Shown: one piece after another, positions 9,790-20,247 of the stretch
Layout of the letters: each line of letters starts with the position of its first letter
How positions within the stretch are numbered: the stretch's first letter is position 1
Source: an uncultured Demequina sp.
GTDB taxonomy: Bacteria; Actinomycetota; Actinomycetes; Actinomycetales; Demequinaceae
Assembly: GCF_913055775.1 (NCBI RefSeq)
Contig: NZ_CAJXJX010000012.1
Location: 1-33,761 of the forward strand
DNA length: 33,761 nucleotides
Reading direction: 5' to 3'
Program-made: the position numbers and the translations under genes
The notes under the pieces: generated by a model
Database searches by the model: none
Seen by the model: only the letters and a program-made list of their open reading frames with translations
Told to the model about the DNA's origin: nothing

Positions 9790-12510
9790 CTACTTCGCGG
9801 CCTTCTTGGCGCGCGAGGTCTTGGCGGCGGCCTTGGCCTTGGGGGCCTCGGCCTTGACCGCACGGTTCTTGACGTCCTCGTAACGGACGCCGTAGTAGGC
9901 GGCCTCCATCATCACCTTCATGTCGGCCAGCATCGGCAGGCGCGGGTTCGCGGGTGCGCACTGGTCCTCGTAGGCGTTCATGGCGAGGGTGTCGAGCGAG
10001 CTCAGGAACTCGGCCTCGTCGAGGCCCACCTCCTGGAAGGACCGCTCGATGCCGACCTTGTCGCGCAGCTCCTCGACGGCCGTGGCGTAGGCCTCGACGG
10101 CCTCCTCCGGGGTCGAGTGGGCCAGACCCAGCATCTTGGCGATCGCCTGGAAGCGCTCGGGCGCCACGTACGACTCCTGCTTGGGCCACGAGGTCGGCTT
10201 GGTCGGGACCTTGCCGTTGTAGCGGATCACGTGCGGGAGGTACACGGCATTGGTGCGGCCGTGCGCGACGTGGAACATCGATCCCGTGACGTGGCTCATC
10301 GCGTGCACGAGGCCCAGGAACGCGTTGCCGAAGGCCATGCCCGCGATGGTTGCGGCGTTGTGCATCTTCTCGCGCGCCTGCTCGGCGCTGCCGCCCACGG
10401 TGACCGACTCCTCGATGTTCTCGAAGACCAGCCGGATGGCCTGCAGGGCCATGCCGTCGGTGAAGTCGTTCGCGTAGACGGACACGAACGCCTCGGTCGC
10501 GTGGGTGAGAGCGTCAAAGCCGGAGTCCGCGGCCACCCGCGAGGGCAGGTTGGCCGTCAGCACCGGGTCCACGATCGCCACGGTCGGGGTCAGCGCGTAG
10601 TCCGCGAGCGGGTACTTGCGGCCCGTGTCGGTGTCAGTGATGACCGCGAACGGGGTGACCTCCGCGCCGGTGCCCGACGTGGTCGGGATGCACACGAGCT
10701 TGGCGAGCTCGCCCAGCTTGGGGAACGCGAAGGCGCGCTTGCGGACGTCGAAGAACTTCTCCTTCAGGTCGCTGAAGACCACGTCCGGGTGCTCGTACAT
10801 GAGCCACATGACCTTCGCGGCGTCCATGGGCGAGCCTCCGCCCACCGCGATGAGCGTGTCGGGCTTGAATGCCCGCAGTACCTCGGCACCGGCCTTCACG
10901 GTCTTGATCGACGGCTCCGGCTCGACGTTGTCGATGATCTGCACGGAGATCTTGTTCTCGCGGCGGTTGAGCACGTCGAGGATCTTGTCGACGATGCCGA
11001 TGCGAGTCATGGTCGAGTCCGTGATGATCGTGACGCGCTCGACGTCGGGCATCGACTTGAGGTACCGGATCGAGTTGGGCTCGAAGTAGGTCTTGGCCGG
11101 CACCTTGAACCACTGCATGTTGTTGTTCCTCCGGCCGATGCGCTTGACGTTCACGAGGTTCACGGCGGTGACGTTATTGCTCACCGAGTTGTGTCCGTAG
11201 GAGCCGCAGCCCAGGGTCAGCGACGGCAGGAAGGCGTTGTAGATGTCGCCGATGCCGCCCTGGCTCGAGGGCGAGTTGGTGATGACGCGGACGGCCTTCA
11301 CACGGCGGCCGAACTCCTGGATGAGCGCCTGGTCGGTCGCGTGGATCGCGGCCGAGTGGCCCAGGCCGTGGAACTCGACCATCTGCTCGGACATCAGCAG
11401 GCCCTGCTCGGTCGAGTCAGCCTTGAGGACGGCCAGCACCGGGCACAGCTTCTCGCGGGTCAGCGGCTCCGACTCTCCGACCTCGGAGACCTCGGCGAGG
11501 ATGATCGACGTCTCCTCCGGCACCTCGAAGCCTGCCTGCTCGGCGATCCACTGCGGCGACTTGCCCACGACGGTGGGGTTGAGCTTCGCACCCGCGCAGT
11601 TCGCGCCGTTGGCCTGGACGCCGAAGATGAACTCCTCGAGCTTGGCCTTCTCGTCAGCGGTCACGCGGTAGGCGTGCAGGCGGTCGAGCTCGGCGAGGGC
11701 CTCGTCGTAGATGCTCGCGTCGATGATCGCGGCCTGCTCCGACGCGCAGACCATGCCGTTGTCGAAGGCCTTCGAGATGACGATGTCGTTGATGGCCCTC
11801 TTGAGCTTGGCCGACTCGTGGATGTAGGCGGGCACGTTGCCGGCGCCGACGCCCAGGGCAGGCTTGCCGCAGCTGTAGGCCGCCTTCACCATCGCGTTGC
11901 CGCCGGTGGCGAGGATCAGCGCGACGCCATCGTGGTTCATCAGCGCGTTGGTCGCGTCGATGGAGGGCGCCTCCACCCACTGGATGCAGTTCTCGGGCGC
12001 GCCGGCCTCGATCGCGGCGTCACGCACGATGCGGGCGGCCGCCACGGACGAGTTCTGCGCGCTCGGGTGGAACGCGAAGATGATCGGGTTGCGGGTCTTG
12101 AGAGCGATGAGCGACTTGAAGATGGCCGTCGACGTGGGGTTGGTCACGGGGGTGACGCCGCAGATGACGCCCACGGGCTCGGCGATCTCGGTGATGCCTA
12201 GCAGCGGGTCGTCGTTGATGACGCCCACCGTCTTCATGGGACCCATCGAGTGGGTGACGTGCTCGCACGCGAAGATGTTCTTCACGGCCTTGTCCTCGAA
12301 CACCCCGCGGCCGGTCTCTTCGACGGCCTTCACGGCGAGATCGCCGTGCTGGTTCAGGGCTGCGACGGACGCCTTCTTGACGAGCAGGTTGACGTCGTCC
12401 TGGGTGAAGGCCGAGTAGTCGTCGAGCGCCTTCTGGGCGTTGGCGACCAGGCGGTCGATCTCCTCGGCCACTGAGGGGGCCGTGGCGGTGGATTCGGCGG
12501 TGGCGGTCAT
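9790..12510 (-). CDS. adhE: Bifunctional acetaldehyde-CoA/alcohol dehydrogenase
   Basis: A 906-residue fusion. Residues of about 15-440 are the CoA-acylating aldehyde dehydrogenase, with catalytic Cys255 in GMVCASEQ. Residues of about 460-870 are the iron-dependent alcohol dehydrogenase, with the nucleotide loop GGGSPMDAAK and the iron-site segment HAMSHVTGSMFHVAHGRTNAV. It turns acetyl-CoA into ethanol in two NADH-using steps, disposing of electrons during fermentation, and pairs with pyruvate formate-lyase in this window. The ATG at 12510 has a strong GGGAGGAA ribosome site; an earlier in-frame ATG at 12582 would add 24 unconserved residues. Odd: after the normal end (GVRYEDVKNRAV) there is a Lys/Ala-rich basic tail of about 22 residues. 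It is monocistronic with its own DosR-box promoter. Confidence 0.97.
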   Translation of the reverse strand: MTATAESTATAPSVAEEIDRLVANAQKALDDYSAFTQDDVNLLVKKASVAALNQHGDLAVKAVEETGRGVFEDKAVKNIFACEHVTHSMGPMKTVGVINDDPLLGITEIAEPVGVICGVTPVTNPTSTAIFKSLIALKTRNPIIFAFHPSAQNSSVAAARIVRDAAIEAGAPENCIQWVEAPSIDATNALMNHDGVALILATGGNAMVKAAYSCGKPALGVGAGNVPAYIHESAKLKRAINDIVISKAFDNGMVCASEQAAIIDASIYDEALAELDRLHAYRVTADEKAKLEEFIFGVQANGANCAGAKLNPTVVGKSPQWIAEQAGFEVPEETSIILAEVSEVGESEPLTREKLCPVLAVLKADSTEQGLLMSEQMVEFHGLGHSAAIHATDQALIQEFGRRVKAVRVITNSPSSQGGIGDIYNAFLPSLTLGCGSYGHNSVSNNVTAVNLVNVKRIGRRNNNMQWFKVPAKTYFEPNSIRYLKSMPDVERVTIITDSTMTRIGIVDKILDVLNRRENKISVQIIDNVEPEPSIKTVKAGAEVLRAFKPDTLIAVGGGSPMDAAKVMWLMYEHPDVVFSDLKEKFFDVRKRAFAFPKLGELAKLVCIPTTSGTGAEVTPFAVITDTDTGRKYPLADYALTPTVAIVDPVLTANLPSRVAADSGFDALTHATEAFVSVYANDFTDGMALQAIRLVFENIEESVTVGGSAEQAREKMHNAATIAGMAFGNAFLGLVHAMSHVTGSMFHVAHGRTNAVYLPHVIRYNGKVPTKPTSWPKQESYVAPERFQAIAKMLGLAHSTPEEAVEAYATAVEELRDKVGIERSFQEVGLDEAEFLSSLDTLAMNAYEDQCAPANPRLPMLADMKVMMEAAYYGVRYEDVKNRAVKAEAPKAKAAAKTSRAKKAAK

Positions 12511-12865: not shown

Positions 12866-14287
12866 TCATCCCTTCGTTGACGCGAGCTGGTTGTCGGTGG
12901 TGTCGCCTGCCAGCGGCGGCGTGGACGCCGACGGCGGCCCGTCGGCGTGGTGACGCTCGTGGTCAGGAACCGCGTCCGCGTGCTCGAGCCACTTGGCCGC
13001 CACGGGGCGCACGAGCAGGTTGGCGACGAAGCCGACGCAGAGGACGCCGACCATGACCAGCAGCGAGGGCCGGTACAGGTCCGAGCCTTCGAGACCCTGG
13101 CCCTCGAGCGCGTCGAGCACCGAGTTGATGATGAGCGGCCCGGCCACGCCGGCGGCGGACCACGCCGTCAGCAGACGACCGTGGATCGCCCCCACCTCGA
13201 ACTCCCCGAACACATCCTTGAGGTAGGCGGGGATCGTGGCGAACCCGCCGCCGTAGAAGCTGATGATCAGCACCACGAGCGGCACGAACAGCGCGATGGA
13301 CGCCGGCCCGAACAGCGCGACGGCCGTGTACGCGAGCGCTCCCACGCCGAGGTACATGACGTATGTGAGCTTGCGCCCGATGACGTCCGACAGGCTCGAC
13401 CAGCCGATGCGGCCCGCCATGTTGGCGAGCGACAGCAGCCCCACGAAGCCGGCAGCGGCCGCGGCGGTGATCTGCGGGAAGTAGTCCTCGATCATGGGCT
13501 TCGCGTTCTCGAGGATGCCGATGCCCGCAGTGACGTTGGTGAAGAGCACGATCCACAGGAACCAGAACGCCGGGGTCTTGATCGCGTTCTTGGCGCTCAC
13601 CTGGCCGCCGCTCGAGACCTTGGCGCGGTGCTCCGACGGCTCCCAGCCGTCGGGCAGCCAGCCCTTGGCGGGAACGCGGATCACGGCCGCTCCCAGCAGC
13701 ATCAGCGTGAAGTACAGCGCGCCCAGCGTGAGGAAGGACGGCACGAGCGCCTCGGACGGCTCATCAGCGTAGGTGCTGAGCAGGAACTGCGACAGCGGTG
13801 CGGCGAGCATGGCGCCTCCGCCGAATCCCATGATCGCCAGTCCCGTCGCGAGACCGGGACGGTCCGGGAACCACTTGATCAGCGTGGACACCGGCGAGAT
13901 GTACCCCAGTCCCAGTCCGATGCCGCCCAGGACGCCGTACCCCAGGTAGACGAGCCACAGCTGCTCCGACGCGACGCCCAGCGACGCGATGCCGAAGCCT
14001 CCCGCCCACGAGAACGCGGCGACCACCATCGTGGCGCGCGGGCCGGTGCGCTCCATCCACCGGCCCCCGAAGGCGGCCGACAGGCCCAGCATCACGATCG
14101 AGATCGAGAAGATCATGCCGATCTGGGTGTGCGTCGCGTCGAAGCGATCGATGAGCGCGTCCTTGAAGACGCTGAAGGCATACACCTGGCCGATGCTGAG
14201 GTGCACGGCGAGCGCGGCCGGGGGCACCAGCCAGCGGTTGTACCCGGGCGGCGCGATGGTGCGGTCACGGCTGAGGACGGACATCAT
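12866..14287 (-). CDS. OFA-family MFS transporter (oxalate/formate antiporter-like)
   Basis: A 473-residue carrier with 12 predicted helices. Features of the oxalate:formate antiporter family include the N-terminal LVPPAALAVHLSIGQVYAFSVF, GGRWMERTGPR in the loop after helix 2, GLGYISPVSTLIKWFPDRPGLATGLAIMGFGGGA in helices 4-5, and NMAGRIGWSSLSDVIGRK in the second half. The real substrate of such proteins is often not oxalate; formate, lactate, pyruvate or other monocarboxylates are possible. Here the shared promoter motif with pflB, adhE and the FNT channel points to an anion made during fermentation. Two ATG codons (14287 and 14284) are possible after an AGGGAG ribosome site; I give the longer. 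The C-terminal 35 residues are hydrophilic. It forms an operon with the 44-residue partner and diverges from the first TDT gene. Confidence 0.9.
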   Translation of the reverse strand: MMSVLSRDRTIAPPGYNRWLVPPAALAVHLSIGQVYAFSVFKDALIDRFDATHTQIGMIFSISIVMLGLSAAFGGRWMERTGPRATMVVAAFSWAGGFGIASLGVASEQLWLVYLGYGVLGGIGLGLGYISPVSTLIKWFPDRPGLATGLAIMGFGGGAMLAAPLSQFLLSTYADEPSEALVPSFLTLGALYFTLMLLGAAVIRVPAKGWLPDGWEPSEHRAKVSSGGQVSAKNAIKTPAFWFLWIVLFTNVTAGIGILENAKPMIEDYFPQITAAAAAGFVGLLSLANMAGRIGWSSLSDVIGRKLTYVMYLGVGALAYTAVALFGPASIALFVPLVVLIISFYGGGFATIPAYLKDVFGEFEVGAIHGRLLTAWSAAGVAGPLIINSVLDALEGQGLEGSDLYRPSLLVMVGVLCVGFVANLLVRPVAAKWLEHADAVPDHERHHADGPPSASTPPLAGDTTDNQLASTKG

Positions 14288-14386: not shown

Positions 14387-14404
14387 GATACCCCTATGGG
14401 TATC
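14387..14404. promoter_or_regulatory. CsoR/CstR-like operator before the first TDT gene
   Basis: GATACCC-CTAT-GGGTATC has perfect 7-bp arms. It resembles A/T-flanked C-tract/G-tract operators of the CsoR/RcnR repressor family and is nearly the same as the palindrome at 15931-15946. It sits about 53 bp before the ATG at 14457. No CsoR-family gene is in the window. Confidence 0.6.
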
Positions 14405-14456
14405 TGGAGCACCCCGAGCCCAGCGCACCCGCAGCGCGACGAGAGGACCACGAGCC

Positions 14457-15443
14457 ATGACCCGACCTGACGCCGCCGTGGCACAGCAGACCCCGAGCCT
14501 CGCGCACCTGCCCGTCGGTGCATTTGCCATCGTCATGGGTCTCGGCGGCACGGCCGTCGCCTGGGAGCGTGCGCACCAGCGCTGGGGCCTGCCCGCGATC
14601 GTGGGCGAGGCGGTGGCCTGGCTGGGACTCGCCGTGCTCGCCACGCTCACCGTGGCGTACGCGCTCAAGCTCGCCCGCCACCCCAGCGCCGTGGTCGCCG
14701 AGTGGCGCCATCCCGTGCGCTCAGCGTTCGCCGCCAGCGTCGCCGTCGCTCCGCTCGTCCTCGCCGTGGCGATGCTGGAGACCGCGCCCGCGCTCTCGGC
14801 CGGCCTGTGGTGGGTGGGCGCGTCACTCATGGCCGTGGTGACCGTGGGCGCGCTGCGCACGTGGATCGCCGATGCGGAGATCCAGCCCGGCCACGTGCAC
14901 CCCGCCTGGTTCATCCCCGTCGTCGGCAACCTGGTCGCGCCGCTCGCGGGAGTGGACCACGCCCCCGTGCAGGTGTCGTGGTACTTCTTCGGCGTCGGCG
15001 CCGTCTACTGGCTGGGGCTGCTTCCCGTGGTGCTGTCGCGCCTGTTCATCGCGGGGGTCATGCCCCCTCGGCTCGCCCCCACGCTCGCCATCCTGGTGGC
15101 CCCGCCGGCGGTGGGCGCACTCGCGTGGGTGCGCCTGGGAGGCGCGTGGAGCGATCCCCTCGCCCAGGTGCTGCTTGCGGTCGTGCTGCTGCAGGTCGCC
15201 CTGCTCGCCTCGCAGGCTCCCGCCCTGCGGGCAGTGCCCTTCGCGCTGTCCTCGTGGGCCTACACGTTCCCACTCGCCGCGGCCACGGTCGCCGTCGGCT
15301 CAGCCGCGGACGCCGGCTTGGGAGTCGCGTACGCATGGATCGCCGGTGCGCTTCTCGCGGCGACCACGGTGCTCGTCGTCGGCATGGCCGTGAGGACGGG
15401 CGTTGCCGTGCGCCGCCGGCAGATCTGCATCCCGGAGGGATGA
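14457..15443 (+). CDS. TDT/SLAC1-family anion transporter (first copy)
   Basis: A 328-residue membrane protein with about ten hydrophobic helices, from the tellurite-resistance/dicarboxylate transporter (TDT; TehA, SLAC1, Ssu1) family. Family-type segments are HLPVGAFAIVMGLGGTAVAW at about 20-39, HPAWFIPVVGNLVAPLAG in the middle, and FALSSWAYTFPLAAATVA near residue 270. Related proteins carry anions such as chloride, nitrate, malate or sulfite. A GAGAGGA ribosome site precedes the ATG at 14457. The operator just upstream and a close paralog at 16001 beside a rhodanese make sulfite or another sulfur anion a reasonable guess, but this is inference. The gene ends 4 bp from the convergent rhodanese stop. 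Confidence 0.85.
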   Translation: MTRPDAAVAQQTPSLAHLPVGAFAIVMGLGGTAVAWERAHQRWGLPAIVGEAVAWLGLAVLATLTVAYALKLARHPSAVVAEWRHPVRSAFAASVAVAPLVLAVAMLETAPALSAGLWWVGASLMAVVTVGALRTWIADAEIQPGHVHPAWFIPVVGNLVAPLAGVDHAPVQVSWYFFGVGAVYWLGLLPVVLSRLFIAGVMPPRLAPTLAILVAPPAVGALAWVRLGGAWSDPLAQVLLAVVLLQVALLASQAPALRAVPFALSSWAYTFPLAAATVAVGSAADAGLGVAYAWIAGALLAATTVLVVGMAVRTGVAVRRRQICIPEG

Positions 15444-15447
15444 GGCG

Positions 15448-15921
15448 TCAGCCGGTGACGACCTCGCCGGCCCACGCCCCGATGCCGCCCTCGAGTCCCA
15501 CCGTCGCGTCGATGCCGGCCGCCGTCATGACCTCGATGGCACCGCGCGAGCGGTTGCCGGAGCGGCAGTACACGGCGTAGGAGGCGTCGGCGTCGAGTTC
15601 GCCGATGGCCTCGGCGAAGCCGGCATGCTGCAGGTTGATGTTGACCGCGCCCGGCAGGTGGCCCTGGGCGAACTCCTCGGGGGTGCGCACGTCGATGATC
15701 GTGACGCCCGGCTCCGCGACGGCGGCGGCGAAGGACGCCGCATCGACATGTGCGCCCGTGAACTCGGGCGCGGCATCGCCCTGGACGGAGGCCACGGCAG
15801 CGAGGTCCTGGTCGGCGCCGCCATCGGGCGCGCTGCACGCGGCCACCGAGACGGCGAGCGCGGCGGCGAGCGCGCCGACCTTGAGCAGGCGCGGCAGGTT
15901 CATCAGACGTGAGGAGATCAT
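15448..15921 (-). CDS. Lipoprotein rhodanese (single-domain sulfurtransferase)
   Basis: A 157-residue exported protein. Residues 1-28 are a signal peptide with lipobox SVAAC, so Cys29 would be lipidated and the protein held outside the membrane. The rhodanese domain covers about residues 50-155, with IIDVRTPEEFAQGHLPGAVNI and the active loop YCRSGNRS, where Cys119 would carry the persulfide. The CRSGNRS loop is of the single-domain GlpE/PspE type. I chose the ATG at 15921 because TATAGT (15933-15928) puts the transcription start exactly on it (leaderless); the ATG at 15903 is an alternative that keeps the lipobox. The operator overlaps the -10 box, so repression is likely. It is divergent from the second TDT gene, which hints at a joint job in sulfur-species handling. 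Confidence 0.88.
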   Translation of the reverse strand: MISSRLMNLPRLLKVGALAAALAVSVAACSAPDGGADQDLAAVASVQGDAAPEFTGAHVDAASFAAAVAEPGVTIIDVRTPEEFAQGHLPGAVNINLQHAGFAEAIGELDADASYAVYCRSGNRSRGAIEVMTAAGIDATVGLEGGIGAWAGEVVTG

Positions 15922-15930
15922 CGCACCACT

Positions 15931-15946
15931 ATACCCCATGGGGTAT
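15931..15946. promoter_or_regulatory. Perfect CsoR/CstR-like palindrome between rhodanese and second TDT gene
   Basis: ATACCCCATGGGGTAT is a perfect 16-bp palindrome. It overlaps the rhodanese -10 box (TATAGT, 15933-15928) and lies at about -68 to -53 of the divergent TDT promoter (-10 TAGACT, 15987-15992). The shape is typical of CsoR-family operators; persulfide sensors (CstR) commonly control rhodanese genes. Confidence 0.7.
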
Positions 15947-16000: not shown

Positions 16001-17020
16001 ATGACCGAGGACCCGGCCCGAGCCCAGGACCCGGCGACGGCGGGCGCCTCCGCGGAGGCGCCGCCCCGCTCCCTCGCGAACTTCCCGATCACTGCCTTCG
16101 GCATCTCGATGGGACTGTCGGGGACGTCGCTCGCGTGGCGGCGCGACTCGGACGTGCTGGAGTGGACGAGCACCACGGGTGAGGTGCTGGCGTGGATCGC
16201 GCTGGGCGCGTTCATCGCGGTCGCCATCACCTACGGAGCGAAGCTGGTGCTCCACCCCGGCGCGGTGCGGCGCGAGTGGGCGCGTCCGTCCACCATGCCC
16301 TTCGCCGGCACCCTGTCGATCTCGATGCTGCTGCTCGCCGCGACGTTCCTCGACACCGCGCCCGGCCCCGCCGCGGCGCTGTGGTGGGCGGGCGCGGTCA
16401 CGCAGGTGGTGCTGACCGTGGGCATGGTGCGGGCGTGGGTCGCGCAGTCGGGCATCTCGACGCGCGACATCCATCCCGCGTGGCTCATCCCGATGATCGG
16501 CATGCTGGCGGTCCCGATCGCGGGCGTCGAGATCGCCGCCGTGGACCTCAACTGGTTCTTCTTCTCCGTGGGCGGCGTCTACTACCTCGCTCTGCTGCCG
16601 CTCGTGCTGCACCGGCTGATCGCCGTCGAGGCCATGCCCGCGGCGCTCGCGCCCACGCTCGCCGTCCTCATCGCCCCGCCCGCGGTCGCGCTCACGGCCT
16701 GGGTGAGCCTGGGCGGATCCATGGACTCGCCGCTGGCGCACGTGCTGCGCTCGCTCGTGCTGTTCCACCTGCTGCTGCTGGCGACCCAGGTCGACACGCT
16801 CCGGCGGGCGCCGTTCGCGCTGTCGTGGTGGGCGTACACGTTCCCGCTCGGCTCCGCATCCGTGGCGCTGATCGCGAGCGCGGACGCGGGCACGTGGGCG
16901 GGCCACCGGGTCGTGGGGGTCATCTGCCTCGCGATTCTCACGCTGCTCCTGGGCATGCTGACGTACCGCACGGCCGCCATGGCATGGCGCGGGGACCTGT
17001 TCCGGCCGCAGAAGGTCTGA
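16001..17020 (+). CDS. TDT/SLAC1-family anion transporter (second copy)
   Basis: A 339-residue membrane protein, clearly paralogous to the product of 14457-15443. Both have a hydrophilic N-terminus, an HPAW(F/L)IP segment (here at about residue 160), a LPxVLxRLxxxxxMPxxLAPTLAxLxAPPAV stretch and the PFALSxWAYTFPL block near residue 278. About ten helices are predicted. The substrate is unknown. Yeast Ssu1 in the same superfamily exports sulfite, and the divergent rhodanese with its CstR-like operator would fit that. The ATG at 16001 is supported by a TAGACT -10 box at 15987-15992, giving a start at about 15999 (leaderless or 2-nt leader). No ribosome site is visible, in keeping with this. Confidence 0.86.
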   Translation: MTEDPARAQDPATAGASAEAPPRSLANFPITAFGISMGLSGTSLAWRRDSDVLEWTSTTGEVLAWIALGAFIAVAITYGAKLVLHPGAVRREWARPSTMPFAGTLSISMLLLAATFLDTAPGPAAALWWAGAVTQVVLTVGMVRAWVAQSGISTRDIHPAWLIPMIGMLAVPIAGVEIAAVDLNWFFFSVGGVYYLALLPLVLHRLIAVEAMPAALAPTLAVLIAPPAVALTAWVSLGGSMDSPLAHVLRSLVLFHLLLLATQVDTLRRAPFALSWWAYTFPLGSASVALIASADAGTWAGHRVVGVICLAILTLLLGMLTYRTAAMAWRGDLFRPQKV

Positions 17021-17053: not shown

Positions 17054-17872
17054 CTACATCACCGGGATGCCGCGGTCGGAGAACTGCTTCTTGACCCGCT
17101 CGATGAGCTCCGGCGTGGGGCGCTCGGTGTCCCCCAGGAGGTAGGGCTCCCCCGTCGCGGCCCACTTGTCGCGACCCAGCTGGTGGAACGGCAGCACCTC
17201 GAGCCGCTCGACGTTGGTGAGCGGCTCGACGATGTCCGCGATCGCCTCGACGTTCTCGACGGCGTCGGTGAGCCCCGGCACCAGCACGAACCGGACCCAG
17301 ACCTTGCGATCCAGCGCGTGCAGGCGCTTCGCGAAGTCGATCGTGGGCTGCAGCGGACGACCGGTCACGCGCGTGTAGGTCTCCGGCAGGCCCGACTTGA
17401 TGTCGAGCAGCACCAGGTCCACGAGCTCGAGCTCCTCGTCGCTCAGCCGTGCCCCGAGCAGCCCCGCCGTGTCGAGAGCCGTGTGGATCCCCAGCTCGTG
17501 GCACCGCCGGAAGATGTTGACCACGTACTTGGCCTGCAGCAGCGGCTCGCCGCCCGAGATCGTGAGTCCCCCGCCGGTGACCTGCATGATCTTCGTGTAC
17601 CGGGACACGCGCTCCATGACCTCGTCGACCGTGTGCCGCACGCCGTCGCGCATCTTCCACGTATCCGGGTTCTGGCAGTACTGGCAGCGCATGCCGCAGC
17701 CGGCGAGGAACAGCGTCATCCGCGTGCCCGGGCCGTCCGCGCCGGTCACGAGGTCCCACGAGTGCACGGACCCGCTCAGGTGGTCCCGGATGTCCTCGGA
17801 CGCCGCCAGCTCGCGGTCGGCGATCTCCATGGGCGGAGAGACCAGCCCTGCGGGGTTCTCCTCGGATGTCAT
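17054..17872 (-). CDS. pflA: Pyruvate formate-lyase activating enzyme
   Basis: A 272-residue radical SAM enzyme that uses S-adenosylmethionine to place the glycyl radical on PflB. The iron-sulfur motif CxxxCxxC is C59, C63 and C66 (GCGMRCQYCQNP). SAM-site segments follow: TGGGLTISGGEPLLQ near 99-113, and the substrate-related LDIKSG. The N-terminus has about 30 extra residues ahead of the conserved SVHSWDLVTGADGPGTR. An AGGAGG ribosome site lies 9-10 bp before the ATG. It is directly downstream of pflB on the same strand with 101 bp between, and a very stable hairpin there should lower its expression relative to pflB, which suits a catalytic activator. Confidence 0.96.
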   Translation of the reverse strand: MTSEENPAGLVSPPMEIADRELAASEDIRDHLSGSVHSWDLVTGADGPGTRMTLFLAGCGMRCQYCQNPDTWKMRDGVRHTVDEVMERVSRYTKIMQVTGGGLTISGGEPLLQAKYVVNIFRRCHELGIHTALDTAGLLGARLSDEELELVDLVLLDIKSGLPETYTRVTGRPLQPTIDFAKRLHALDRKVWVRFVLVPGLTDAVENVEAIADIVEPLTNVERLEVLPFHQLGRDKWAATGEPYLLGDTERPTPELIERVKKQFSDRGIPVM

Positions 17873-17973: not shown

Positions 17974-20247
17974 CTAGAGGCCGGCGTGGAACGTCCGCGA
18001 CAGCACGTCGAGCTGCTGCTCGCGGGTGAGTCGCACGAAGTTCACGGCGTAGCCGGACACGCGAATGGTCAGCTGCGGGTAGTTCTCCGGGTGCTCCATC
18101 GCGTCCTCGAGGGTGTCGCGGTTGAGCACGTTGACGTTCATGTGGAAGCCGTGCGAGACGGTATAGGCATCGAGCACACCCACGAGGTTCTGCACCTGCT
18201 CCGTCTTGTCGCGGCCCAGGCCCGACGGAACCACCGTGGTGGTGAGCGAGATGCCGTCCTGCGCGTCGTCGTACGGGAGCTTCGCCACGGACAGCGCCGA
18301 CGCGACGATGCCGTGGTTGTCGCGCCCGTTCATCGGGTTCGCACCGGGTGCGAAGGGCTCGCCCTCGCGCCGCCCGTCGGGCGTGTTGCCCGTCGCCTTG
18401 CCGTACACCACGTTCGAGGTGATCGTGAGCACGGACTGCGTGTGCTTGGCGCCCCGGTAGGTGGGCTGCTGGCGCACCTTCTCCATGAAGCGGTGAACCA
18501 GGTCCACGGCGATGTCGTCGACACGGTCGTCGTCGTTGCCGTAGGTCGGGTACTCGCCCTCGGTCGAGTAGTCGACGACGAGCCCGGTCTCGTCACGGAC
18601 CGGCGTGACCCTGGCGTACTTGATGGCGGACAGCGAGTCCGCCGCCACCGACAGGCCAGCGATGCCGCAGGCCATGGTCCGGAGGATCTCGCGGTCGTGC
18701 AACGCCATCTCGATGCGCTCGTACGCGTACTTGTCGTGCATGTAGTGGATGACGTTCAGCGCGTCGACATAGGTCTCGGCGAGCCAGTCCAACAGGCCGT
18801 CGAACTTCTCCATGACATCGTCGAAGTCGAGGACGTCGCCCTCGACCGGGGCGCTCACCGGCGAGACCTGCTTGCCCGAGACCTCGTCCCGGCCGCCGTT
18901 GATCGCGTACAGCATCGCCTTGGCGAGGTTGACGCGGGCGCCGAAGAACTGCATCTGCTTGCCGACCTCCATGCCGGACACGCAGCAGGCGATCGCCGCG
19001 TCGTCGCCGCACTGGTCGCGGAGCAGATCGTCGGACTCGTACTGGATCGACGAGGTGTCGATCGAGACCTTCGCGCAGAACTCCTTGAAGCCCCGGGGCA
19101 GCTGGTCGCTCCACAGCACGGTCAGGTTCGGCTCGGGGGCCGGGCCCAGGTTGTACAGCGTCTGCAGGAAGCGGAACGAGGTCCTGGTGACCAGCGGGCG
19201 ACCGTCGTCGCCGATGCCGCCGATGGACTCGGTGACCCACGTGGGGTCGCCCGAGAACAGGGCGTCGTACTCCGGGGTGCGCAGGAAGCGGACGATGCGC
19301 AGCTTGATGACGAAGTCGTCGATGATCTCCTGCGCGGCCTCCTCGGTGAGGGTGCCCTCGGCGATGTCGCGCGAGGCGTAGACGTCGAGGAAGGTCGAGG
19401 TGCGGCCCAGCGACATTGCGGCGCCGTTCTGCTCCTTGACCGCGGCGAGGTAGCCGAAGTAGAGCCACTGCACGGCCTCGCGGAAGGTGGCCGCGGGCCC
19501 CGAGATGTCGTAGCCGTACGAGGCCGCCATCTGCTTGAGCTCATTCAGAGCCTTGATCTGCTCCGAGTTCTCCTCGCGGTCGCGGATGATCTCCTCGGTC
19601 GAGCGCTCCATGTCGAGCTGCATGCGCTCGATCTTCTTGCCCTCGATCAGCGCGTCCACGCCGTACAGGGCCACGCGGCGGTAGTCGCCGATGATGCGGC
19701 CACGGCCATACGCGTCAGGCAGGCCGGTGACGATGTGGGAGCTGCGTGCGGCGCGCACGTTCGGCGGGTAGGCGTCGAACACGCCGTCGTTGTGGGTCTT
19801 GCGGTACTTCGAGAAGGTCTCCTCGAGCTCTGGGAGCACCGGGTAGCCGTAGGTCTCGAGCTCCTTGACGACCATGCGCCAGCCGCCGAACGGCATGATC
19901 GCGCGCTTCAGCGGAGCGTCGGTCTGGAGGCCGACGATGACCTCCGCGTCCTGGTCGATGTAGCCGGGCGCGTGCGCCGTGATGGTCGCCGGGGTCGAAT
20001 AGTCGACGTCGTACACGCCCTTCTCGCGCTCCTCCGGGAACATCCCGGAGAGCGTGTCCCACACGCCCGTGGTGCGGGCGGTCGGACCGGCGAGGAACGA
20101 GTCATCGCCCTCGTAGGGCTCGTAGTTGGCCTGGATGAATCCGCGGACGTCGATGGCGTCGGCCCACGGGCCGCGCTCGAAGCCCCTCCACTCGTTCGCG
20201 TGGGCGACGGTGTCGGCGGCCGATGCGGGGATATCGGTGGCGGTCAT
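17974..20247 (-). CDS. pflB: Formate C-acetyltransferase (pyruvate formate-lyase)
   Basis: A 757-residue glycyl-radical enzyme, close to E. coli PflB (760). It converts pyruvate and CoA to acetyl-CoA and formate without oxygen. The active-site pair Cys421-Cys422 ([11 protein letters not shown]) and the radical Gly732 ([17 protein letters not shown]) line up with C418/C419 and G734 of E. coli. The N-terminus [23 protein letters not shown] is typical. The start has a GGAGGAA ribosome site. The enzyme is destroyed by oxygen when active, so the host must live at least partly without oxygen. The promoter carries the DosR-like box. pflA follows, and the FNT channel and adhE elsewhere in the window complete the pathway. 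Confidence 0.98.

Follow-up and report, generated by a model that had tools for sequence, protein, structure and literature searches.

Putative operators of a CsoR-family repressor at rhodanese and SLAC1/TehA-type channel genes in Demequina

Two operators in a fermentation island

The stretch of DNA analyzed here, called the window, is 33,761 nucleotides long and comes from the genus Demequina. It contains a fermentation island with the order adhE, an L-lactate-type MFS carrier, TDT1, a rhodanese, TDT2, pflA, and pflB (Table 1); TDT2 lies just beyond the range given in the first-pass annotation. That annotation had described two variants of one operator near the TDT genes, one of them a perfect palindrome, and both were present as claimed, by inspection and by a consensus scan. 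The sequence GATACCCCTATGGGTATC was located at 14387−14404, where it spans operator 1. When up to three mismatches to the consensus were allowed, operators 1 and 2 were the only sites in the window (four strand matches); 100 shuffles gave a mean of 0.40 matches, and none of them reached four.

Table 1 Features of the fermentation island and its operators
Feature	Position	Strand	Properties
adhE, acetaldehyde/alcohol dehydrogenase	9790–12510	−	NF010378 above cut-off; operator-linked in relatives, without operator here
L-lactate-type MFS carrier	12866–14287	−	NF049980, 333 bits vs. cut-off 320
Operator 1, ATACCCCTATGGGTAT	14388–14403		16 bp; 53 bp upstream of TDT1 ATG (14457)
TDT1, SLAC1/TehA-type anion channel	14457–15443	+	328 aa; PF03595; model resembles TehA and SLAC1 (PDB)
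Rhodanese	15448–15921	−	157 aa; PF00581; PDB rhodaneses; apparent lipoprotein signal VSVAAC (by eye)
Likely −10 box of rhodanese, TATAGT	15928–15933	−	Overlaps operator 2; 6 nt before rhodanese ATG
Operator 2, perfect palindrome ATACCCCATGGGGTAT	15931–15946		16 bp; between divergent rhodanese and TDT2; 9 bp to rhodanese ATG (15921, minus strand), 54 bp to TDT2 ATG (16001)
TDT2, SLAC1/TehA-type anion channel	16001–17020	+	339 aa; PF03595; 44% identity with TDT1
pflA, pyruvate formate-lyase activase	17054–17872	−	TIGR02493 above cut-off
pflB, formate C-acetyltransferase	17974–20247	−	TIGR01255 above cut-off

The overlap of operator 2 with the rhodanese −10 box, also claimed earlier, is correct as far as can be read from the sequence, because the minus strand of operator 2 runs into TATAGT: its last three bases start that hexamer, and on the plus strand the last three start TATTTT toward TDT2. 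A scan of the operator 2/rhodanese region with the sigma-70 consensus did not find a full promoter. At exact sites in the loci examined, TATNNT was present in 26 of the 27 directions facing this rhodanese vs. 22 of the 99 site directions to which no gene was assigned. It was also present for the gene of a protein with a CPVC motif (12/12), a small Cys-rich protein (14/22), a CoADR-rhodanese (9/22), and TDT (4/13), and for none of the adhE (0/9), SQR-like (0/4), or thioredoxin (0/6) genes. Since the share of TATNNT differs between the linked genes, the −10 overlap is a trait of some of these promoters only.

The candidate regulator and the operator sites in the genome

Sites, regulator type, site-linked genes, and conservation were computed from the genome sequences. 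A search for a CsoR/CstR gene elsewhere in the genome, as the first-pass annotation had advised, yielded a single CsoR-family match in the window's genome (2.71 Mb, 208 contigs, 97% complete), on contig C59. The C59 regulator has the PF02583 fold (79 bits vs. a cut-off of 22.8), cysteines at positions 34 and 63 (numbered from the start used here) with a spacing of 29, and a Gly at the place of the copper-ligand His, so that no histidine stands at the fourth residue before the second Cys. The Cys-His-Cys copper site that marks membership in the copper-sensing CsoR proteins was absent from it in the alignment. Its best PDB matches were 7mq1-3 (E about 3e-9), which have Cys at both places; at the His place 7mq1 has Asn, whereas the C59 regulator has Gly. 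These entries carry the PDB label copper-sensing, and we take them to be pneumococcal CstR. Thirty loci were inspected out of 52 family matches. They comprised 26 two-Cys regulators, in all of which (26/26) the two cysteines are kept and the His place is taken by Gly, Ser, or Ala, and four copper-type CsoR paralogues from relatives, which had C-H-C.

The genome contains four exact sites, two of which are in the window, and the reversed-pattern control gave none. The third, at C59:5314, is identical in pattern and lies upstream of the regulator's own operon, between the gene for a fusion of CoA-disulfide reductase and rhodanese (552 aa) on one side and, on the other, a small Cys-rich gene with the regulator gene after it. 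The closest match of this fusion was the CoA-persulfide reductase 8a56 (E 1.7e-158), and its score falls under the NCBIfam CoA-disulfide-reductase cut-offs. The fourth, at C3:9498, is a few bases upstream of the gene for a membrane protein of 165 aa that carries a CPVC motif (L017:4492–4989, G000 C3) and for which no Pfam or NCBIfam match was found. Sites with one mismatch were located upstream of a gene on C111 for a 506-aa SQR-like protein, whose nearest matches are sulfide-quinone reductases (E 2.6e-36), and of a gene on C130 for an 832-aa CoADR-rhodanese-TusA-DsrE fusion; a third is on C33. At up to two mismatches there were 18 genome sites vs. four for the reversed pattern, and among the eleven two-mismatch sites the one that was read, on C37, looks intragenic.

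ScCsoR of Streptomyces coelicolor, with Cys37 and Cys66, recognizes a 16-bp palindrome, ATACC-n6-GGTAT, from which polysulfide releases it (PMC7533328). The circuit examined here resembles that of ScCsoR in having a 16-bp palindrome with ATACC/GGTAT half-sites, cysteines 29 apart, autoregulation, and a regulon with a rhodanese and a membrane anion exporter, the exporter function being putative here. It differs in that no persulfide dioxygenase was found in the genomes searched, the channels are SLAC1/TDT rather than TauE proteins, the genes are scattered, and SQR-like and CoADR fusion genes, with adhE in relatives, stand at the sites. CstR of S. aureus and E. faecalis is likewise a two-Cys CsoR-family repressor associated with rhodaneses; its S. 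aureus regulon includes SQR and a TauE efflux gene, and in E. faecalis it controls CoA-persulfide reductase (PMC5480029, PMC9405070). Unlike the present case, the excerpts of those two papers mention no adhE operator and name no TDT channel. TTHA1953 of Thermus thermophilus is also a cysteine-based CsoR-family protein that controls scattered sulfur genes and has an ATACC/GGTAT palindrome, but the spacing is shorter, the targets are Sox genes, and NaHS gave no response in that study (PMC10318464). The name CstR in the excerpt of PMC13344952 belongs to an unrelated response regulator.

The type of the regulator, the site at its own operon, the sulfur genes at the sites, and an operator matching that of ScCsoR give good support to the CsoR/CstR-type regulation proposed earlier. 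Judged from these features, a persulfide-type CsoR repressor very likely regulates TDT1, the rhodanese, and TDT2. The C59 regulator itself probably senses persulfide in the manner of CstR and ScCsoR and would be released from DNA by it.

Conservation in the genus and the link to adhE

Exact sites were found in 44 of the 47 family genomes (genus Demequina), 184 sites in all when the table was summed, and the reversed pattern was found in none. Each of the 43 genomes in which a CsoR-family gene was matched contained the site, vs. one of the four without a match; that exception is 85% complete and has two sites. The exact sites thus follow the presence of the regulator.

TDT genes are present in 20 of the 47 family genomes, in one of them by a weak match. 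A check of operator conservation near TDT orthologs, another step proposed with the first annotation, showed a site with no more than one mismatch upstream of TDT at 16 of 20 loci (the window pair and 18 relatives); the other four have an exact site at a convergent rhodanese instead. An exact site was upstream of the rhodanese in all 18 of the TDT-chosen loci that contain one. Three entries were left out of the TDT counts: L041, a weak match without a site (E 7.8e-4), and L039 and L043, each the second fragment of a split TDT gene. When starts were projected from partial matches, the numbers were 14/27 for the rhodanese and 14/20 for TDT (one from another family); the projected rhodanese starts cross a variable signal peptide, and the values of 18/18 and 16/20 come from separate locus scans. 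In the loci examined, a listed gene is downstream of 99 of 108 exact sites, which are only part of the 184, and this proportion is partly circular because such sites supplied the gene list and were the reason for choosing many of the loci.

Outside the family, no operator with up to two mismatches was found at seven TDT loci, whose gene contexts were judged by eye. A relative of TDT1 at 1e-20 was present in three of 296 phylum genomes, counting that of the window, and the nearest TDT proteins outside the family were from Alphaproteobacteria (39–43% identity) and from one genome of the same order (44%). Because these nearest TDT genes have no operators, the TDT gene may have been recruited into the regulon within the genus. 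In G035, the TDT gene (L205:8428–11707) is interrupted by about 2.4 kb containing two genes that resemble IS21-type transposases (by eye). A metallo-hydrolase gene of G041 (L202:1252–2184) lies between the rhodanese and TDT genes and has an exact operator in common with the divergent TDT; the protein was considered as a persulfide dioxygenase and rejected, since it has the motif HLHQDH and no ETHE1-like GRxD. A thioredoxin-like gene with a WCGPC motif follows an exact operator in loci of six relatives (L105, L112, L113, L127, L134, and L140).

In relatives, the operator is also found at adhE. When one mismatch was allowed, a site was present within 300 bp upstream of adhE at 18 of 26 loci (10 of them exact): 12 of the 17 TDT-chosen relatives, six of the eight chosen by a rhodanese site, and not the window. 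The eight remaining adhE loci, like the four TDT loci described above, have no such site. As controls in the adhE loci, prfB gave 0/17, pflB 0/9, and the L-lactate-type carrier 4/14, and the 647 kb of these loci contained 62 real sites vs. 0 of the reversed pattern. For the window's genome, the window scan found no operator upstream of adhE or pflBA. The rhodanese usually adjoins adhE in relatives, and the presence of TDT and the carrier varies; TDT adjoins adhE in divergent orientation at some loci, of which L193 and L200 have just one site for the two genes.

A search of the literature on CstR with adhE, and on sulfane sulfur with fermentation, found, among the entries listed, no report of an adhE operator of the CstR type. 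YgaV of E. coli is of the ArsR type, a family other than CsoR. It resembles the arrangement suggested here as a sulfide sensor governing anaerobic metabolism, but its targets are respiratory and not fermentative, so that it ties sulfide to anaerobic respiration (PMC9774250). In S. aureus, unlike what is suggested here, loss of CstR lowers the fermentation genes pflB, adh1, and a lactate permease (PMC5480029), the reverse of what direct repression and derepression would give. The operator upstream of adhE in relatives suggests that sulfide defense and fermentation are switched on together. It is quite possible, and we advance it tentatively, that a CstR-type repressor directly controls adhE in many Demequina along with the SLAC1-type channels and thereby switches sulfide removal and fermentation jointly.

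Channel cargo and a proposed circuit

Bacterial TDT/SLAC1 channels are usually named for tellurite or dicarboxylates, and we know of no sequence mark of a sulfite-exporter cargo. The structural model of TDT1 (pLDDT 87) matched TehA and SLAC1 with a TM score of about 0.8, a comparison that covers TDT1 alone. Against the NCBIfam model tdt (TIGR00816) the TDT pair scored 150.6 and 121.8 bits, under the cut-off of 237.25, and the TehA model was also under its cut-off. The Phe preceding a conserved Pro was invariant in ten aligned proteins, and from another alignment we take it to correspond to the Phe that lines the pore in Mae1, TehA, and SLAC1 (PMC6765260). The window TDT proteins have in common with the SLAC1/TehA/Mae1/Ssu1 group this pore Phe and the fold, modeled for TDT1; they differ in that their genes lie next to a rhodanese and have an operator of the persulfide type. 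Within this group, a SLAC1-type carrier exports dicarboxylate, and yeast Ssu1 has a SLAC1 domain (PMC6765260).

Because the TDT genes are in the fermentation island and the operator precedes adhE in relatives, efflux of organic acids fits about as well as efflux of sulfur anions. Organic acid anions (formate, lactate, acetate, succinate) are a plausible cargo, to be named with caution; sulfur anions (sulfite, thiosulfate, hydrosulfide) are possible and more doubtful, and some other cargo is unlikely. Since pflB is present in 44 of 47 genomes vs. 20 with TDT, fermenting relatives can do without TDT, which argues against organic acids as a strict need. An FNT-like (formate/nitrite channel) gene at 90–1022 on the minus strand of the window, about 17 kb from pflBA and under its curated cut-off, means that formate may have another exit. 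The earlier reading of the TDT pair as exporters of sulfite or other sulfur anions therefore stands in part: its regulation by a CsoR/CstR-type repressor is well supported, whereas sulfite export is more doubtful, with no persulfide dioxygenase seen in the genomes searched and the genes in a fermentation island. Its doubt about the tellurite name was reasonable; organic acids are among the possible cargoes.

The sulfite reading would make the TDT proteins sulfite/thiosulfate exporters that, within a CstR-type regulon, stand in for TauE and remove the product of persulfide oxidation. An ETHE1-type persulfide dioxygenase makes sulfite in the S. coelicolor circuit, and the enzyme is in the S. aureus regulon too, though not in all regulons of this kind. 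None was found among the PF00753 matches, three in the window's genome and 30 in six TDT-bearing relatives, when judged by an ETHE1 motif; one scan with this motif covered only the matched stretches of metallo-beta-lactamase proteins. This result and the location of the TDT genes inside the fermentation island weigh against such an exporter. In its favor are the presence of TauE in the regulons of S. coelicolor (PMC7533328) and S. aureus (PMC5480029), the SLAC1 domain of Ssu1 noted above, and two matches to PF01507 (PAPS-reductase family) in the window's genome, by which sulfate assimilation may make sulfite; however, one TauE gene of that genome lies only 1.4 kb away from one of the PF01507 genes, and its product could itself handle sulfite. 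The genome G040, which has no TDT, also has a TauE gene (L170:1468–2575) with an exact operator about 50 bp before the ORF, but this locus is ambiguous because the genome has copper-type CsoR paralogues and a metal-ATPase-like gene is nearby. On balance, we regard the replacement of TauE by sulfite-exporting TDT proteins as possible but doubtful. TauE as the usual partner at the operators was rejected, with a site of no more than one mismatch at just one of 30 loci scanned (that of G040); the remaining TauE matches were compared with the site lists by eye, in a few genomes. The neighbors of the G040 TauE gene resemble lspA and a metal ATPase (by eye).

Two other effectors were considered. If copper or another metal were the signal, the repressor would be a CsoR metal sensor and TDT would be unrelated to sulfur. 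The copper operators of CsoR and RicR do resemble the ATACC-n6-GGTAT site (PMC7533328), and copper-type CsoR paralogues exist in some relatives; but the His ligand is missing from the C59 regulator and from all 26 aligned family regulators of its type, and no copper genes were seen at the six sites read among the seven own-genome sites with up to one mismatch. Because the only CsoR-family protein found is without the histidine ligand, copper control was rejected as the main reading, and we consider it highly improbable. An FrmR-like aldehyde sensor that watches acetaldehyde and thus controls adhE would agree with the best NCBIfam match of the regulator, which is FrmR (38 bits, far under the cut-off of 133), and with the fact that AdhE handles acetaldehyde and adhE is operator-linked in relatives. 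It is nevertheless very unlikely, since the regulator keeps both CstR-type cysteines, as do its best PDB matches, and RhdLp, CoADR, CPVC-protein, and SQR-like genes form a large part of the site-linked set.

We return to persulfide as the signal and infer binding, effector, induction, and physiology as follows. In its reduced form, the C59 repressor would sit on ATACCC-N4-GGGTAT and block transcription, covering the likely −10 box at the rhodanese promoter. Sulfide would be converted to persulfide by the SQR-like enzyme and by other routes, persulfide would sulfurate the repressor cysteines, and the repressor would leave the DNA. Upon its release, the rhodanese, the CoA-persulfide-reductase-like enzymes, and the two anion channels would be made. 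Sulfide is a respiratory poison and a sign of anoxic sediment. Because sulfide blocks respiration, a single response to it might both remove sulfane sulfur and open fermentation, with export of the fermentation anions. We consider it likely that a persulfide-released repressor controls sulfide detoxification, the anion channels, and, in many relatives, AdhE. Such a circuit would give bacterial TDT/SLAC1 channels a regulatory context open to test, and it suggests that an actinobacterial genus couples the sensing of reactive sulfur directly to fermentation.

The operator is so well defined that the regulon can be read from it, including the unnamed CPVC membrane protein and the small Cys-rich protein. 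The first gene past the operator in the regulator operon (L001:1295–1453, G000 C59) encodes a 52-residue Cys-rich protein (MCSPITCRQCGKTTWTGCGQH...), and genes of this kind face 22 exact sites across the loci examined.
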